The position numbers were made by a program, and so were the translations under genes. From positions 496,001 through 560,000 of the forward strand of contig JAIVFJ010000004.1 of the NCBI GenBank assembly GCA_025765615.1: DNA of 64,000 bases, written 5' to 3'. The notes below the pieces were generated by a model, which was not told the origin of the DNA, ran no database searches, and saw only the letters and a program-made list of their open reading frames with translations. Shown in pieces: positions 28,572 through 41,059 of this stretch; position 1 is the first letter of the stretch; each line of letters begins with the position of its first letter. This DNA comes from Zopfochytrium polystomum. Lineage: Eukaryota > Chytridiomycota > Chytridiomycetes > Chytridiales > Chytridiaceae.

Positions 28572-30332
28572 TCAACGGTCCAGCTCGATTCCAAGGTCGT
28601 CCACCTGGACAGCAGGCTCCTCTTCAAGGGCCGCCCCATCTTTCAAAGCCTCTCCAGTCTGTCGCGGCGCAGCAGTCTTCCGAGACGTCAGCCGGTAGCT
28701 CATGTCAAACCACTGATTCGGATGCTCAATGATGTCAAAGGGCGCCGAGGCAGCAGCAGCCGCGGCCAGGGCATCCCCACTTCCTCCCTCTGCCGCCGCG
28801 GCCGCCGCCAGCGCCCTCCGCGCCTCGCGCACGGCAGGGCCCCTTACCATCTCAAACACCCTCGTGCACGCAATTTGCGCATGCCCGTCCTTTGCCAGAG
28901 CCAACACCTCGCCCATCATCGGCCCTTCCGCGACGCCAAGCCTCCCGCAAATCCCGCGCACCGCGTCCCCCGACAAGTGCCGGAACGGGCATCCATGCGC
29001 CTCGCCCGCCGCCGCGTTGGGCCCGTGCTCCATGATGATGCGCTGGCACGAGTGCGGCGCGTAATCCCTGCGAGACCCTTCGCGGCCGTAATTGAACCTG
29101 ACATTGTACGCATACGCCTTTGAAAACTGGTCGTCGGTGAGCTTGGAAAACGCCTTGCGCCAGTACACGAGCGCCTCGTCGAGCGGCAGGCCCGCGCCCT
29201 TTAAGAACAGCGAAAACTGCAGCCGCCCCGTGTGCTTCAGGTGCGAGTTTGCCGCGAGGTGCGTCTGCATGTGGAGCATGCACGGCGGGAAATGGCCCTC
29301 CTTTGCCAGGCGGTTCACTTCCGCGGCGCGGATCGTGCCCGCACCGGCACCGGCCGCGGTGTTGTTGGGGTCGTACCCGCCCGTCGCGAGCTGCCGCGCG
29401 ATCGAGTTCAGCACTGGCGCGAGCCGGTCGTCCTCGTCCATGCGCGGCATCGCGCGCGCGGTCGCCTCCAGCGCGTCCCGCAGCCGCTCGCGGAACGCGT
29501 GCGCGACGAGCAGCGGCCGCTCCGCGTCGGGCACGTACGCGAACCCGGCGGCGACCACCACCGCGCGGCGCGCAACGAGCCCCGCGACGCGCTCGAACGG
29601 CACCTTGTAGAACCCGCCGCGCGTCCCCGGCCGTCGCTCCACGGCCGCCGCGGCAACGTCCGCGCCGTGCACGGCGGCCAGCTCCCCCTGAATCGCGCGC
29701 AGCTCCGCCGGCGGCGAGTCGGCGGCGTCGCAGCCGAGCGCGGCGGCGTGTCTGCGGAGGAACGCGTCGCGGTCCGCGGCGGGCTCGGCCTCGAAGCGGG
29801 CGCGGAACAGCGCCGTCTCGGTGCGCAGGAACCACGCGCGGTTGTCTTCGGTGCGGCAGTAGGCCAGCCGCAGGATGTAGTGCGAGCAGTGGTCCTTGAG
29901 CCGCTCGTTCGCCACGCGGGAGGCGCCGGCCGCCGCCGCGAGCGAGTTGGGAGTCAGGCGGAGGTGCTTGTCGAGGAGCGGCTTGAGGGATGCGGCGGTG
30001 GCGGCGGCGGAAGCGGCCGCGGTGCTGTTGCTGGAGGCGGCGGCCTTGGATCGGATGGCGGCGGCGTCGATGGCGCGGAGCACCTTGAGGCGGTCGAGCG
30101 CCCAGAGCTCAAAGTCGTCGACGGTGATTTCGGCGCGCGGCGGGCTGGTGTATGGGCATAGGGCGGTCGGGTAGCGGGAGAGCAACGGGTGGCTGGCAAA
30201 GAGGGCGAGCAGCTGCGGATCGCCACCGGCGATGCCCGCGATGCCGTCGTCGAGGAGGAGGTCGTGGTTCAGGTCGCCGCCCACGCCGCCGCCGCTGGCG
30301 GCTTTGCCCGAGGTCCTGGACTTTTTGAACAT
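28572..30332 (-). CDS. PRI2: DNA primase large subunit (Pri2), single exon
   Basis: Regulatory subunit of primase in the DNA polymerase alpha complex; helps make RNA primers and holds a 4Fe-4S cluster. One uninterrupted 586-aa frame from ATG 30332. The N-terminal half is GC-rich with Ala-rich insertions. Recognisable: SRYPTALCPYTSPPRA, VDDFELWALDRLKVLRAID, DHCSHYILRLAYCRTEDNRA and WFLRTETALFRARF. The C-terminal cluster domain supplies the four Cys ligands: PPCMLHMQ, HSCQRIIMEHGPNA, HGCPFRHL and IACTRVFEM. It also has RLQFSLFLKGAGLPLDEALV and YWRKAFSKLT, then YAYNVRFNYG. The end is EHPNQWFDMSYRL plus an acidic tail. Length fits the family (about 510-530) with small insertions. It is the only long intronless gene in the window, and it stays in frame throughout. 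Confidence 0.95.
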   Translation of the reverse strand: MFKKSRTSGKAASGGGVGGDLNHDLLLDDGIAGIAGGDPQLLALFASHPLLSRYPTALCPYTSPPRAEITVDDFELWALDRLKVLRAIDAAAIRSKAAASSNSTAAASAAATAASLKPLLDKHLRLTPNSLAAAAGASRVANERLKDHCSHYILRLAYCRTEDNRAWFLRTETALFRARFEAEPAADRDAFLRRHAAALGCDAADSPPAELRAIQGELAAVHGADVAAAAVERRPGTRGGFYKVPFERVAGLVARRAVVVAAGFAYVPDAERPLLVAHAFRERLRDALEATARAMPRMDEDDRLAPVLNSIARQLATGGYDPNNTAAGAGAGTIRAAEVNRLAKEGHFPPCMLHMQTHLAANSHLKHTGRLQFSLFLKGAGLPLDEALVYWRKAFSKLTDDQFSKAYAYNVRFNYGREGSRRDYAPHSCQRIIMEHGPNAAAGEAHGCPFRHLSGDAVRGICGRLGVAEGPMMGEVLALAKDGHAQIACTRVFEMVRGPAVREARRALAAAAAAEGGSGDALAAAAAASAPFDIIEHPNQWFDMSYRLTSRKTAAPRQTGEALKDGAALEEEPAVQVDDLGIELDR

Positions 30333-30414
30333 TCTGTTGAGGCGATCGCTTGTCCAGACCCGAACGATTGAATTTCCGTGACAAGGCTGGGTGGTCCTTG
30401 TCAGATCCGCACAA

Positions 30415-33209
30415 ATGTCTCAGCAGCAAGGCGACAAGGCGCGCATCTACTTTGGCTCCATCGAGGACGTGGAGCGACGGCGGCTCGCGGCCGCGGGCGC
30501 CTACGGATCCGCCGATGGCGGCCAGGGTTCTTCGACATCGCAGCAGCAGCAGCAACGATCGAGGGTAAGGGCAGAGGACTGCTACAAAGGCCCCCAACAG
30601 CTGCGCTTTCTTTTTTTTTTTCTTTCAGTCAATCGAAACTTGCTGCTATTTCCTCATCGCTCCGCCCTGGCCCCGCTCACATTTCCAAACTCAGGCCCGA
30701 AACTTTGATGACCTCGACGACGCGGCCGACATTGGCGAAAGCGGTCGGCGGGCCCAGGCGGAGCACCAAGCGGTCTTGGATGACTTTGAGCGCAAGCGGC
30801 TCGCGCGCTCCATCGCGGTCCCGACCGACGACCGCCGCGTCCGCGCCCGTCTCCGCGCGTACGGCGAGCCGCAGACGCTCTTTGGCGAAGGCCCGGGCGA
30901 GCGCAGGGACCGCCTGCGCGACCTCATGACGCAGCGGATGGAGGCCGGGATGGACGTCGAGGCGGAGGAGGCGCTCGACGAGGACGAGAGCGACGCGGAC
31001 GAGGACGACGACAGCAGCGGCGCTGGCGCGGACGATGATGAGAATGAGGAGTTTTACAGTTACGGTCCCGACGGGTTGCTCGAGGCGAGGCACTGGCTCG
31101 CGACGTGGTCCATGCGGAGAGCGGGGAGGCGGCTGGCTGCGCAGAGAGCTGAGTTGGAGGTCCCGCTCACGCAGAGAAAAAAGATGAAGCTGGATTGGTA
31201 TTCCCACCTCAAGGTGAGCGTCTCTGTTTTTGTTTCTTCGATGGGTGAGTTATTCGGGGGCACGAAAAATGACTAAGGAGGCAGTCTTGTTCAAGCCCTG
31301 GCCTGTTTGGGTCTATTTGAAGTGAAGTACACGTTCCAGTCATACGCCGAGCCGAGAGCGAAATATAGCAGTTGCGTTCGGAAGCCGAATCGCAGCGATT
31401 TCGTACAGCGCGGCTGTTCGCGCTTGGGTCGGCAGCCCCACCAAAAGCGCTATTTTGTGTACCTGTCCGCAGGAAAGCACTCACTCGGTCCTTTCCGCTT
31501 CCCGCCCACCCTGATGGTTCCTCCCAGACATTCAGTTTCACTGCGTCCCAAATCGGCGACGACCGTCCACTCAGCTATTGCGCGCTTTCGCCAAACTCGC
31601 GACTGATCGCGACGGGGTCGTTTTCGGGTCTCACGAAGCTTTGGTCCGTGCCGGACTGCAACCACCTGCTCACATTGAAGGGTCAGCGCGACCGCGTCAG
31701 CAGTCTCGCTTTCCACCCTGGCTCGACGATTTCGCAAGATCCTGGTGCTGTCAATTTGGTGACGAGCGGCATGGACGGGACAGTGAATTTGCATAGTTTT
31801 ACGAGGTTTGTGGGCCACAGTTTTGCTTTCATAAATTCCTCCTTGCCTGTTTCACTGGCAATCCAATTTAGAATTCTCATTCCTTCCTTACAGCCCAACA
31901 CCCATCGCTCAGCTTGTTGGTCACGAACTGCGAGTTGCTCGAGTCGCGTTTCACCCCTCAGGTCGCTACATCGGCACTGCAAGGTTTGTAACAAGCGGTT
32001 GCGTTGTTTTCGAAGAAATTTTTTTGTTGCGCTCATTTCTATCGTTCCTCCCTTACAGTTACGATCAAACATGGCGGCTGTGGGACACTGAAACACAAGC
32101 TGAACTATTACTCCAAGATCGACACTCGAGAGAGGTGTTTTGCATCGGTTTCCAGTGTGATGGGTCATTAGTGGCTTCCGCGTGAGTACATTTCATGAGT
32201 TGCCCGTTGCAGGCTCAATCAGAGTTCTCTTTCTGATTCATCGGCATTCCCTCTGACCCCCGAAAACAAACAAACAAAAAAAAAAACAACAACAAAAAAC
32301 GCTAGGGGCATGGACGCGATCGGGCGCGTCTGGGATCTCCGTACCGGCCGCTCCATCTTTGTCCTGCAAGGCCACGTGCGGCCCATCGTCAGCCTGGACT
32401 GGTCCCCGAACGGCTACACCATCGCGACCGGCTCCGAGGACAACCAGATCCGCATCTGGGACGTCCGCCAGGCGCGCTCCACGTATATCATCCCCGCGCA
32501 CACCAACCTCGTCTCGCAGGTCAAGTTTTGGCGCGCCGGTGACGGCTTCGAGTCGAGGAGCGCGGCGGACCGACGGAGGGCCGGTGGCGCGGCCGATAGC
32601 GCTCCCGCAGGGACCGGCGAGGCCCAGGTTGCCGCTTGGAGCTTTACGGACGACCCGCCGTACGGGAGGAGGAGTCGTCGCACTGGGCGCCGGCGGCGCG
32701 CGGGGATGGCGGTTGATTCGGGGTTGGTGGGGAACGGGGCCGGGGACAGCGATGACTCCGACGACGACGATGACGACGATGACGACGACGGCGAGGAGCG
32801 CATGGACGAGGACGGACGACATGGACTTTGACCCCGCGCGCGGGCACCGGCGGGACGACGGCGACTCGAGCACCACGGCGCTGCGGCGGCAGCTGCTGTC
32901 CGGCGGCCACCTGGTCTCGAGCTCGTACGACGGGTCGTGCAAGATTTTCACCGAGGGCGACTGGAAGCCGATCAAGAGCCTCTCGGGGCTGGAGACCAAA
33001 GTCATGGGGTGCGACGTGTCGCAAGGTAAAGTTTGGTTGTCCCTCTTTTATTATTTTTTTTTTTGTTTTTTTTTTTTTGCGGCTTGTTGTCTGATTCATT
33101 ATCGCCGGAAAAACAAAAAAAAAAAAAAACACTCTGACCAGACGGAAAGTACATCGCGACAGCATCTTACGATCGAACATTCAAGCTGTTCTCGCCGGAT
33201 GGGGTGTAA
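30415..33209 (+). CDS. PRP4: U4/U6 snRNP protein Prp4 (WD40), multi-exon, acidic insertion
   Basis: Spliceosomal WD40 protein of the U4/U6 particle, partner of Prp3. Exon 1 (30415-30564) has [20 protein letters not shown] (PRP4 N-terminal motif). Exon 2 (30695-31213) has the splicing-factor motif [38 protein letters not shown] and an acidic stretch. After an unresolved part (31214-31480) the WD repeats follow: [121 protein letters not shown], and the last exon [20 protein letters not shown]. Between the sixth and seventh repeats is an unusual insertion (32540-32870) rich in Arg, Gly and Asp. This exon (32306-33025) carries one base too many, so a +1 change is needed inside the insertion (around 32740-32815). 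Confidence 0.9.
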
Positions 33210-36296: not shown

Positions 36297-36377
<81 letters not shown>

Positions 36378-37262: not shown

Positions 37263-39012
37263 TTAAAACCCCTTTCCGCCCGTGTGTCCCTGTCGCTGCT
37301 GCCGCTTCAGCTTGGATGCTTCGCTGTACGCCGCGGCGGCGCCCACCAACACCATCAGCAACAGGCCCGCTACGCAGATCGCCGACGTGACCGAAAACCA
37401 CGTCTTTTGCATCGAAAACACCAGACCGAACGAGAACGGCACGGACAGCGTCACCGTCACACGGAGGAACGCTTGGAGCGCGGCGGATGCCGTCGTGTAC
37501 TTCCATCTGGGTTTTGGTAGTTATTGATGAAAAAGGACAATGCGCGTGAAAAAAATTTGCTTGCTTACGAGTGGAGAGTGTAGCACACCGTTGACGCGAC
37601 GAGCGAGACGAACACGTACATGAAGGTCATCATGATGAATGCGTCCATCGTTGTCAGGTCTGTTTTTTTTTTTTTTAATAAGAAGCATAGGTTGGGTGAG
37701 GGGGGCTCATACATCGAACTTTTGGAAGCTCTTGAGACACGACAACGTTCAAGGTGACCACAGACAGCATCAGCGCAACCATTCCAGTGAAACGTGGTGG
37801 GAACGCGGAGGATTCGATAAAGTATGTTGTGCAACTGACGAGGCAGAGCAGCGCCATTGGAAGACTGTCGGGAGGGGGTTGGGTGGGCGGGCGAAAGGGC
37901 CGCGAACGGTTGTGGTACAATCAGCAAGTGCCAGAAAAGATTTCAGCAGCAACGGAGAGCACTAGCCTTCCACCGCTTCCCGCTCGCAATTCTCTCCTCA
38001 CAAGCTCACATGTATCTGGTGATGTACGAGGACGGCACGCGTGAAATGGAAAATGAGAACAAGGCTTCGCCCGCATCAGTGATAGTGCTTTGGTTGCCGT
38101 CCAACTGGTGGCCAGACAAAACGAAAAAAACAAAGATCAGCTGGACCGAGCAACCCCCCCCAGTTCGAAGTTGGGTGAAGCAAAACATACGGTCCACAGA
38201 GACGAAAAGCCGTCCGTAGTGAAATCGGTGCCGGCCAGGACCAACGAGAGGCGGCCGCTGTCGCCCTTGCCAAGAACGAGGGAGACCGAAAGAGTTTGGT
38301 TGTCATATGGAAATCCGTGGAGGTTGTATTTCGAGGAGAATGGAAGAACGAGTTGCTGGTTTTTTTTTTTGGAATTAGGGTTGCGTCAACGTTGGAATTG
38401 AAAGGTTAGTTGACGAGGACGACCTTACCCTTATCCACGTCACCATCCCGGTGCCATCGGAAAAAATGTAAACGTCTTCATAAATGGGATTGGGCACGTT
38501 GGCCGTGTCGATGGCGAGCTTGGAAAAGTAGATGAACGGAGTCCACACAAGGCCTGGGTCGACTTCCAGCGCCAAGTTGGGGTTGCTGATTGCGAGCCTG
38601 GGGTCGATCCAGGCGAGGGTGACGGTCATGTCGAGCTGGATGGGAGAAAGGGCAAAAATTAAATGTTTAGGTGATCCACGCAGGGGGATGCGCTCTTCCT
38701 CACAATAAACGAGCTGGATTTCGGCTCGACGCCGTAGATTCGATTGACAATGAGCTCCACGGCGATTTTGGTGCGGCCATCGTCGACGACTTCACCCGTC
38801 GAGGAAGAGATGTAGGGCGGATCGAGCTTGTGGTAGGGTCTGTCCGTGTTGTTAAACAGGTACTGCGTCGCGAGGTAATTGGAGGCGGTCGTGTTGATGC
38901 TGAAGCCCTCGGGGAAGGTTGTTGCGGTCGCGTTTGCGGCCTTGATGGTCGTCGCCTGGGCTGCGACCGCCTGGGCGGCAGCGAGGAGTTGAAGACCGGC
39001 GATGGCGCGCAT
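37263..39012 (-). CDS. Pentameric ligand-gated ion channel lacking the Cys-loop cysteines, 7 exons
   Basis: Minus-strand exons 39012-38704, 38635-38429, 38355-38191, 38104-38010, 37864-37713, 37659-37569 and 37506-37263 join with correct phases to 420 aa. Signal peptide MRAIAGLQLLAAAQAVAAQA. The extracellular beta-sandwich has ELIVNRIYGVEPKSSSF, then LDMTVTLAWIDPRLAI (the W-x-D-x-R-L of loop D/beta2), VWTPFIYFSKLAID, GTGMVTWIR, and the signature loop YNLHGFPYDNQTLSVSL. FPYD is the FPxD motif, but both flanking cysteines are replaced (Tyr and Leu), as in prokaryotic members. Pre-M1 is FSFSISRVPSSYITRYI; M1 LPMALLCLVSCTTYFIESSA; M2 RFTGMVALMLSVVTLNVVV, then SQELPKVR; M3 LTTMDAFIMMTFMYVFVSLV; M4 TWFSVTSAICVAGLLLMVLV. 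The M2-M3 LPKV turn is typical. The M3-M4 loop is short. Ligand and ion selectivity are unknown. Confidence 0.9.
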
Positions 39013-41059
39013 GGAAGGGGAAAAGAGCGGTGACTGAAGTGCAATTTGTTTTTGAATTCGGGTCGCGACGAAGGATTCTTCCGGGTCGTCTCGTCTGGAT
39101 CAATCCCGGTCCGCACGGAAACTGCGCGCGGCCAACGCAAAAATTCTCGGCCGCTCCACTGTGAGTGTTTTCGTGAGCGATTCTGGCTCTCGGGCTTTTC
39201 CCGTGACTGCCCCACACACACAAAAGAGCTCAGTCACGCAAAATGTTACAGAGCGAGAGAGAGAGAGAGAGAGACTGATAGAATCTTCACACCCACACGC
39301 TCCGGCGCAGGAAGCCCACCAGACATTCGTGCTTCGACGAGGGGCAATACGTTTTTGGGCTAGACATCGTTCAGGGAAACTAACTCAAATAACAACAAAT
39401 GGTTATGAAAATTGGAATGCTTCAAGTTCCATGTAATGAAAAAGTGTTTACTGCATCAACTGGCTGCCTGGAATTTATATTGTTACTCCTTCGGAGTCTT
39501 TCAAAGTTTCCACACGAAAGTTGGAAGAAATGCCATCACTCCGAAAGAAATCAACGCTTGGAAACACATGCTTATTGCCTAAGCCTAAATTTGCAAGTAA
39601 TTGCGAATAGAGTATCTGATTCCAGAAGTTGCACAATTTTTTTAAGCAGAAGTCAACGAAAAATTCGCGACGGTCAGGAACAGGGCAGGGCAGGACAAGG
39701 CAGACAAGGAACTGAGAGGAGTGATGATTGTACTGGAAACAATAATTCACTTGAGGGATGGGACAGGTCCCCCATCCCCCTTTTATACCTTTTGAGAGTG
39801 TTCCTTGTCAAGACTCAAAGAAAGTTCCAGAAAGAGCAATTAGTAATACAATGATACCAATGATACCAATGACAACAAGACAAGTCAGGAAAGCAAAGAA
39901 GGTTCCAGAGAAGGTTCACGCAGAGTCCGAACAAACGCGACACAAAAGAAGCCCTGGGCGATTACTTCACCTTTCCATCTGTGTTCAAGAGGCACAACAC
40001 AGCTCTGTTCCAATTATGACTTTGGTGCGCTTTGGCACATATTCTTGAGATAATGGATCTGAATTGCGAAGATTATCTGTGTGACTGACTGACCTCTGGG
40101 ATTCCATGGTAAAATTCTAATAGGTCCCCAGGATATCGTTCCTTAACCGCTGTGCTGCCTTGCGGATGGCAGTGCTAAGAACAGATGTGGGGTTGCAAGA
40201 GCTCTCTTACAGGGAATCTTCGTATTGGCATTTGCGGAGAGACACTTTACAAACCTTCTAAGTACCTTGAATTCCTTCGAGGCCACTAAGACGTAATGGA
40301 GTGCCTCAAGAGTGAATCCGCTGCCAGTGGAGAAAATTCCCTGTTTGAAAGTAGGGGACTCTCCGTATACAAAATTGTCGTTGTACACCACAATGGCGCA
40401 ACTGAATTTTTTGAAGGCAGTTTATTCCAATCAGAGTCCCAAATTCAGGTTGTGGTTGGAAACGGTCTCTGTTTTTCTAGGTCTTTCACATGGAATGACA
40501 AATTTTGTAATTGAGACTCAACTGGATGCCAGAGTGAATGTGGCAGTACTGCGGACTGATACATTGATCAGAATCGTTCTCTGACTTTGGCACTGAAGAA
40601 GAAAACCCTTCTCTGGAAGTAGAAGTACTAAACCCAGAACTCGAAGCCTGAAGGTTACATGGGCTTGCTTACGGTCAAAACCACAGATATTGTAAAGCCC
40701 ACAAGGAGAAGAAAACCCCAGTTTTGGCACACTGAGTTTGATTGGTTGGAATAAAAGGATCTTTATTCTTCTGATGCTTGGCGATGCTATGGAAAATGGC
40801 GCGCCGCTCGACCTTTCACTACTTGACAACTCATGTATGTCACTAGATTCAGTAGATTGGGCATGAGCGATCGTCCTATCGTCCCTTCGCCACTTCCCGC
40901 CTGCCGCCATTAAGATGTCATAACTTTCGCCAACGTCAGCGTAACAGAGTAAACACTACAAATCTCAGCCAAAAAGTGCTCCCTCCCAATTAACAGCCCG
41001 CTTCCACCACCCACGCATCACTTCTCCTGCACACAAGCCGCCGCATCGCCTTCCCAACA
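39013..41059. other. Unassigned 2-kb region, AT-richer than its surroundings
   Basis: No gene is confidently supported. 39249-39274 is a short (AG)n run. From about 39390 to 40900 the sequence is visibly AT-richer and CpG-poorer than flanking genes. Open frames with protein-like composition exist on both strands: minus 40910-40518 (MAAGGKWRRDDRTIAHAQS...) and 40391-40143 (DNFVYGESPTFKQGIFSTGS), and plus 40312-40584. They overlap, and I could not join them with convincing splice sites. A diverged mobile-element remnant or a fast-evolving gene are both possible. Confidence 0.4.

Follow-up and report, generated by a model that had tools for sequence, protein, structure and literature searches.

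Pentameric ligand-gated ion channels (pLGICs) usually have four membrane helices per subunit. Among them, GLIC, the proton-gated channel of Gloeobacter, passes cations, and in glycine receptors an arginine of loop D (FLRQQW) contacts the agonist. Members without the cysteine pair of the signature loop, but with its Pro-loop conserved, are described in passages of papers on protists and some invertebrates (PMC4795631) and on diatoms (PMC11085791), and the superfamily survey of Jaiteh et al. (2016), as excerpted, found none in fungi (PMC4795631). The window analyzed here, a 64,000-nucleotide stretch of the Zopfochytrium polystomum genome, contains on its minus strand (positions 37263-39012) a seven-exon gene that encodes a member of this superfamily, subunit fold included. 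It belongs to an expanded Zopfochytrium family within a wider chytrid channel clade, and we assign a probability of roughly 0.7 to the joint reading that its product is a Cys-less pLGIC subunit of this family and works as the anion channel proposed below. An earlier note, made from the DNA letters, had claimed a Cys-less pentameric channel gene in an apparent chytrid, from a superfamily generally regarded as absent from yeasts and filamentous fungi; domains, splicing, cysteine positions and taxonomy support the gene, the organism is a true fungus of the Chytridiomycota (order Chytridiales), which makes 'apparent chytrid' right, and the supposed absence agrees with the same survey in the passages at hand (PMC4795631).

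Channel fold and gene structure

The Pfam check proposed in the earlier note is positive for PF02931 (7.5e-11, 42.3 bits, cut-off 26) and falls marginally short for PF02932, whose match (3.2e-6) reaches 28.0 bits, just below the cut-off of 28.1; the precomputed Pfam list of the deposited protein P0001 includes PF02932. In a comparison with the PDB, the monomer model is nearest to glycine and GABA-A receptors, with GLIC close behind (Foldseek, 2.1e-21), and the top PDB match by sequence is GLIC (3.7e-19). The Pro-loop (codons 180-194, 38290..38334 on the minus strand, as are all gene features below; SKYNLHGFPYDNQTL) contains the FPYD motif at residues 187-190 and, in the alignment, has serine and leucine at the two places of the Cys-loop cysteines, confirming that the disulphide pair is missing as first read. 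The absence is common to all 21 chytrid-type rows with data (one row is without the second place). The protein's only cysteines, at residues 266, 270, 335 and 384, fall within modelled membrane helices and its extracellular domain is therefore free of cysteine; the disulphide pair of Cys-loop receptors proper is absent. The window model also matches two virus proteins in BFVD, A0A5J6VL22 (1.3e-20) and A0A7S9SUV3 (3.4e-17), one of them from a Megaviridae environmental sample; channels with such a fold therefore occur in giant viruses.

The seven exons join in frame to encode 420 residues, and the six introns (68, 73, 86, 145, 53 and 62 bases; phases 0, 0, 0, 2, 1 and 2) are all GT-AG. Exon 1 (38704..39012) carries the start codon, a putative signal peptide judged by eye (codons 1-20, 38953..39012) and the first beta strands; exon 2 (38429..38635) the W-x-D-x-R-L strand and the loop A region; exon 3 (38191..38355) the Cys-less Pro-loop and loop B; exon 4 (38010..38104) a short loop C, the last strand and the start of membrane helix M1; exon 5 (37713..37864) the remainder of M1, M2 and the LPKV turn; exon 6 (37569..37659) M3; and exon 7 (37263..37506) the end of M3, M4, M5, the basic C-terminal tail and the stop codon. 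These assignments come from splicing throughout, together with the identical protein P0001 for exon 1, the alignment for exons 2, 3 and 5, and the model for exon 7. The product is 100% identical over its full length to P0001, a deposited hypothetical protein of Z. polystomum (DFJ73DRAFT_956179), and the exons, phases, coordinates and length first read from the DNA were all correct.

Five predicted membrane helices

Four membrane helices had been read from the sequence; hydropathy and the structure model predict five, and a second chytrid protein agrees. The model places M1 at residues 251-274 (37819..38035, spanning intron 4), M3 at 313-340 (37506..37651, spanning intron 6) and M4 at 344-371 (37413..37496), while model and alignment place the pore helix M2 at 280-304 (37729..37803), with P-P-R at -2'/-1'/0' and leucine at 9'. 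The extra helix, M5, is predicted at residues 379-418 (37272..37391) by hydropathy, model and alignment, and reaches into the basic tail. Of the five hydropathy segments of the window protein, the last is the strongest (2.42), and there is almost no M3-M4 loop in its model. A Blyttiomyces protein, modelled separately, has helices at 249-271, 277-301, 310-337, 341-369 and 376-424; in both models M5 is a separate long helix, with a predicted local distance difference test score (pLDDT) mostly near 90. In structural alignment, the M4 of the window model matches that of animal channels, over a model range up to residue 375, and the 50 listed PDB matches stop just beyond M4, at residues 374-378 of the window model and 371-376 of the Blyttiomyces model.

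A second hydrophobic segment follows the conserved pre-M4 arginine in 20 of 22 chytrid-type rows, in which 60-137 residues remain past the arginine, and is missing from all 19 rows of animals, protists and bacteria whose tail can be read. This count excludes the GLIC, GlyR and nAChR rows, whose excerpts stop before M4; within the 19, L061 nearly duplicates L062, and ENA_P22 is shortened, its full length showing four segments. Residues 400-420 of the tail contain five K/R and one D/E and therefore, by the positive-inside rule, suit the cytosol. Overall, relative to the channels compared, few of them from protists, chytrid channels appear to carry an additional membrane helix; the five helices are a prediction, not proof. 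If true, the fifth helix would be, to our knowledge, a new architecture for a much-studied protein class. Four helices are not taken here as defining the superfamily, because the hit validation of Jaiteh et al. required only a compatible topology, and the word 'fifth' is absent from the main text of that paper, although the survey set aside sequence ends (PMC4795631).

One deposited paralog, P0004 (locus L067, contig C143), diverges from its relatives from M4 onward, and its genome region matches residues 340-383 and 361-410 of the window protein in separate frames. Either the reading frame shifts there, in the genome itself or in its assembly, or the gene model is wrong.

The chytrid channel family

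Among the matches listed in a search with the window protein, seven of eight are from Zopfochytrium (itself and P0002-P0007, at 60-82% identity) and one is a distant protein. A search with a Zopfochytrium member outside this family found 15 proteins, comprising 11 named chytrid proteins (Zopfochytrium, Blyttiomyces, Boothiomyces, Terramyces, Globomyces, Podochytrium and Obelidium), a mollusc, a sea anemone and two others; an alignment search listed at least 11 proteins and so extended the set by four (one from Globomyces, one from Blyttiomyces and two metagenome proteins). The named fungal matches listed are all chytrid, and the four genera looked up belong to the Chytridiales and Rhizophydiales, with one unplaced. 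Some deposited chytrid proteins bear domain names or glycine- or GABA-receptor labels, so that chytrid channel genes are already in the databases. Two of them, Boothiomyces P0016 and P0017, are named glycine receptor alpha-3 and also carry PF07986; the annotation probably joined two genes, and a real fusion is possible.

Within the 80.2-Mb assembly, where the window sits in a 699-kb contig (C4), exon matches to P0001 occur on 15 contigs, some of them being near-identical copies of a single region (C111 and C760, 97%; C62, C589 and C332, 97-99%). The six intron places and phases are identical in the five exactly spliced full-length genes of the window family, P0004 having one extra. P0009 and P0010, from the other chytrid family, have four and two introns, every one of which lies at a window-family place. 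Other-family Zopfochytrium members are clustered on contig C148, with copies on C193, C360 and C738 (C193 and C360 are 99.7% alike). The cluster (C148:136500-146000, locus L024; copies L025, L026 and L027) holds about four channel genes in 9.5 kb, in both orientations, and its copies share long matching pieces about 91-99.7% alike; they are haplotypes, recent duplications or both.

In a 40-row tree, all 18 chytrid-type rows, including one metagenome protein, form one clade (support 97/91), and the clade holds at 98/98 in a 35-row tree from which five long-branch rows (ENA_P8, ENA_P22, cyano_L063, cyano_L065 and bactJGI_P27) were removed. This single clade goes together with the shared introns and the fifth hydrophobic segment in marking the chytrid channels. 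The trees leave out partial proteins (P0006, P0019 and P0026), close copies (P0012 and P0017) and L054, which is the same gene as L053; P0016 enters without its first 150 residues, P0022 to residue 420 and one spliced model cut at 418, the bacterial rows are trimmed to their final 340 residues, and protists are represented by only two ENA proteins on long branches. The six window-family rows form a fully supported group (100/100) whose stem is long, at 2.1 to 2.4 changes per column, which makes their position inside the chytrid clade unsure. By the approximately unbiased (AU) test, a single clade of the other chytrid rows apart from the window family is not rejected (p = 0.289), so that 'other chytrid members' is a working label. 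A clade of chytrid and animal anion channels is likewise not rejected (p = 0.244), and the trees fit more than one arrangement of the animal anion, animal cation and chytrid branches.

The ratio of nonsynonymous to synonymous substitution rates (dN/dS) is 0.125-0.271 in 10 pairs from five window-family genes, with dS of 0.86-1.90; the count leaves out P0005, whose deposited model is not exactly spliced from the locus, and P0006, which has no exon 1. By region, dN/dS in M1-M3 is 0.064 and 0.033 for two pairs. The channel core is under purifying selection, and the C-terminus is looser.

Pore, predicted ligand site and proposed mechanism

M2 aligns to glycine receptors without a gap, and the 9' leucine (residue 292) is kept in six aligned paralogs. 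The pre-M2 motif is P-P-R in all seven window-family rows and P-A-R in 12 of 15 other chytrid-type rows, and GLIC has glutamate at -2'. The window protein thus has the proline and arginine of the anion-type P-A-R/K motif, with its alanine replaced and without an acidic residue. Anion selectivity is our best guess from these residues; passages of the superfamily survey call a motif of this type an insufficient predictor of selectivity outside animals (PMC4795631).

Of the 13 other chytrid-type rows with data, 10 keep the loop D arginine; all seven window-family rows lack it. Most other chytrid-type rows have an aromatic loop B (e.g. SYSY), which GKGDS replaces in all seven aligned window-family rows (codons 201-205, 38257..38271), and the window family has a short loop C. 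Our working model is a putative amino-acid-type site in the other chytrid members, and a site that may be rebuilt or silent in the window family.

Most likely, the window protein is a subunit of a ligand-opened plasma-membrane anion channel, with a putative ligand and possible partner subunits; it may act in the chemosensing or zoospore ion signalling that the earlier note suggested. Five subunits would form an M2-lined pore, closed at the 9' leucine; binding at the outer domain would open it, and the Pro-loop and LPKV turn would relay the movement, like their counterparts in relatives. P-P-R, with no acidic residue at the inner mouth, would favor anions. M5 would return the basic C-terminus to the cytoplasm, where modification or binding may occur. 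The other chytrid members, which mostly have the loop D arginine and an aromatic loop B, may bind an amino acid or a similar carboxylate; because both features were lost from the window family, its subunits may respond to a different ligand or join other subunits in mixed pentamers. Chloride would flow through the open pore and change the voltage across the membrane, or the volume, with the wall-less zoospore as the most plausible site. A broader account is tentative and probably not right in every part: five-helix, Cys-less anion channels resembling GABA and glycine receptors would have been retained from the ancestor of animals and fungi, most members would still detect an amino acid at the animal receptors' site, the Zopfochytrium branch would have rebuilt that site, and M5 would provide a cytosolic C-terminus and a control that no compared relative has.

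Compared with GABA-A and glycine receptors, the window protein lacks the Cys-loop cysteines, has an added fifth helix and has almost no M3-M4 loop, and its family has neither the loop D arginine nor an aromatic loop B, and its loop C is incomplete. It shares a Cys-less Pro-loop with GLIC, its best sequence match in the PDB; in contrast, the GLIC homologs compared stop after M4, GLIC has glutamate where the window protein has proline at -2', and the two fall in separate clades. It also resembles the eukaryotic, Cys-less channels of protists and some invertebrates, with their conserved Pro-loop (PMC4795631 and, for diatoms, PMC11085791, in passages); unlike those in the survey excerpts, this channel is fungal. 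Within open-licence PMC literature (titles and abstract openings), no report of a fungal member was found, nor in passages of PMC4795631, PMC5168858, PMC7935092, PMC11085791 and PMC13345962; the same literature yielded no published fifth helix and no publication on what such channels mean for fungi.

With a conserved chytrid clade, opisthokonts without nerves would possess relatives of inhibitory neurotransmitter receptors, which would allow asking what such channels do without synapses and would bear on how old amino-acid-gated anion channels are. Transformation has been reported in the chytrid Spizellomyces (PMC7213984).

Alternative explanations

The serine and leucine at the Cys-loop positions are shared with GLIC, which together with the top PDB match (3.7e-19) would suit a separate transfer of the gene from a bacterial GLIC-like channel, its Cys-less state being a bacterial inheritance. 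However, constraining the window family together with GLIC costs 39.3 log-likelihood units and is rejected (p-AU 0.0033), so that the match reflects shared old residues rather than descent; the chytrid-type rows form one clade in both trees, introns are common to the other chytrid family, the model is nearest to glycine and GABA-A receptors, though GLIC is close, and, as a weak point from one short M2 pattern, a scan of bacterial contigs with the chytrid alignment (A4) confirmed none of 13 pattern matches. Such a transfer is very improbable, and kinship to GLIC, which the earlier note had implied for GLIC and ELIC, was rejected; the Cys-less state is common to all 21 chytrid-type rows with data. 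A contaminated or misassembled locus is more improbable still, to the point of being negligible: the gene has spliceosomal introns, its protein is deposited identically, matches occur on 15 contigs of the same assembly, relatives are named from six other chytrid genera, and the same contig carries a DNA primase large subunit gene, about 7 kb from the channel gene. Nothing was found in favor of contamination, which the earlier note had named as a risk, and it was rejected on computational grounds. A transfer of the ancestral gene to chytrids from an animal, an alga, another protist or a giant virus, in place of vertical retention, is a serious contender, although the odds are somewhat against it. 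The named fungal matches listed are chytrid only, giant-virus proteins of the same fold exist (A0A5J6VL22), and Jaiteh et al. suspected several lateral transfers among unicellular forms (PMC4795631, in passages); yet at least two chytrid orders have the channel, and none of the animal rows used falls in the clade, with few protists included and the pairing with animal anion channels not rejected (p = 0.244).

Several observations weigh against the preferred reading of a five-helix, anion-selective chytrid channel. Its best PDB sequence match, GLIC, passes cations; the loop D arginine also occurs outside the chytrid clade (bactJGI_P27, ENA_P8, cyano_L056 and animal anion rows) and hence proves little alone; M5 and the tail are less constrained, with dN/dS of 0.66 and 0.40 for the two pairs; two of the 22 chytrid-type rows score low for the post-M4 segment, namely P0004, which has a divergent deposited end, and a Globomyces protein with a segment that starts just upstream of the scored stretch; and at a plain hydropathy cut of 1.5 only 13 of 22 chytrid-type proteins show all five segments, because M4, or other helices in partial or misannotated records, drops below it. 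The fifth stretch might not span the membrane as a fifth helix, with a single crossing by either M4 or M5, or a re-entrant or amphipathic helix in the tail. The modest hydropathy of M4 in the window family (0.99-1.79, best 19 residues in the first 30 past the conserved arginine) and the faster evolution of M5 and the tail favor this arrangement, but M4 aligns with the M4 of animal channels, no stretch of the protein is more hydrophobic than M5, and both models give it a separate, for the most part confidently predicted long helix, which leaves the alternative unlikely. Somewhat less unlikely, though still doubtful, is that window-family proteins lack a channel role of their own, being silent partner subunits or copies in decay, as the lost orthosteric residues and the departure of P0004 from other paralogs at M4-M5 might suggest; against this, dN/dS lies well below 1 in all 10 pairs, and M1-M3, with pore and gate, are almost unchanged.

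Other features of the window and related genomes

In a sample of the phylum to which the GLIC-like Aphanocapsa metagenome-assembled genome belongs, that genome included (sample G001, loci L054-L066), 13 of 292 genomes match PF02931, in several deep lineages. Within the window, the primase domain (PF04104, 1.1e-66), from a core gene of eukaryotes and archaea, lies in a 615-residue frame at 28575-30419 on the minus strand; nine other long frames of the window have no Pfam match at 1e-3. GA simple repeats flank the channel gene, at about 36300-36370 and at 39247-39275.
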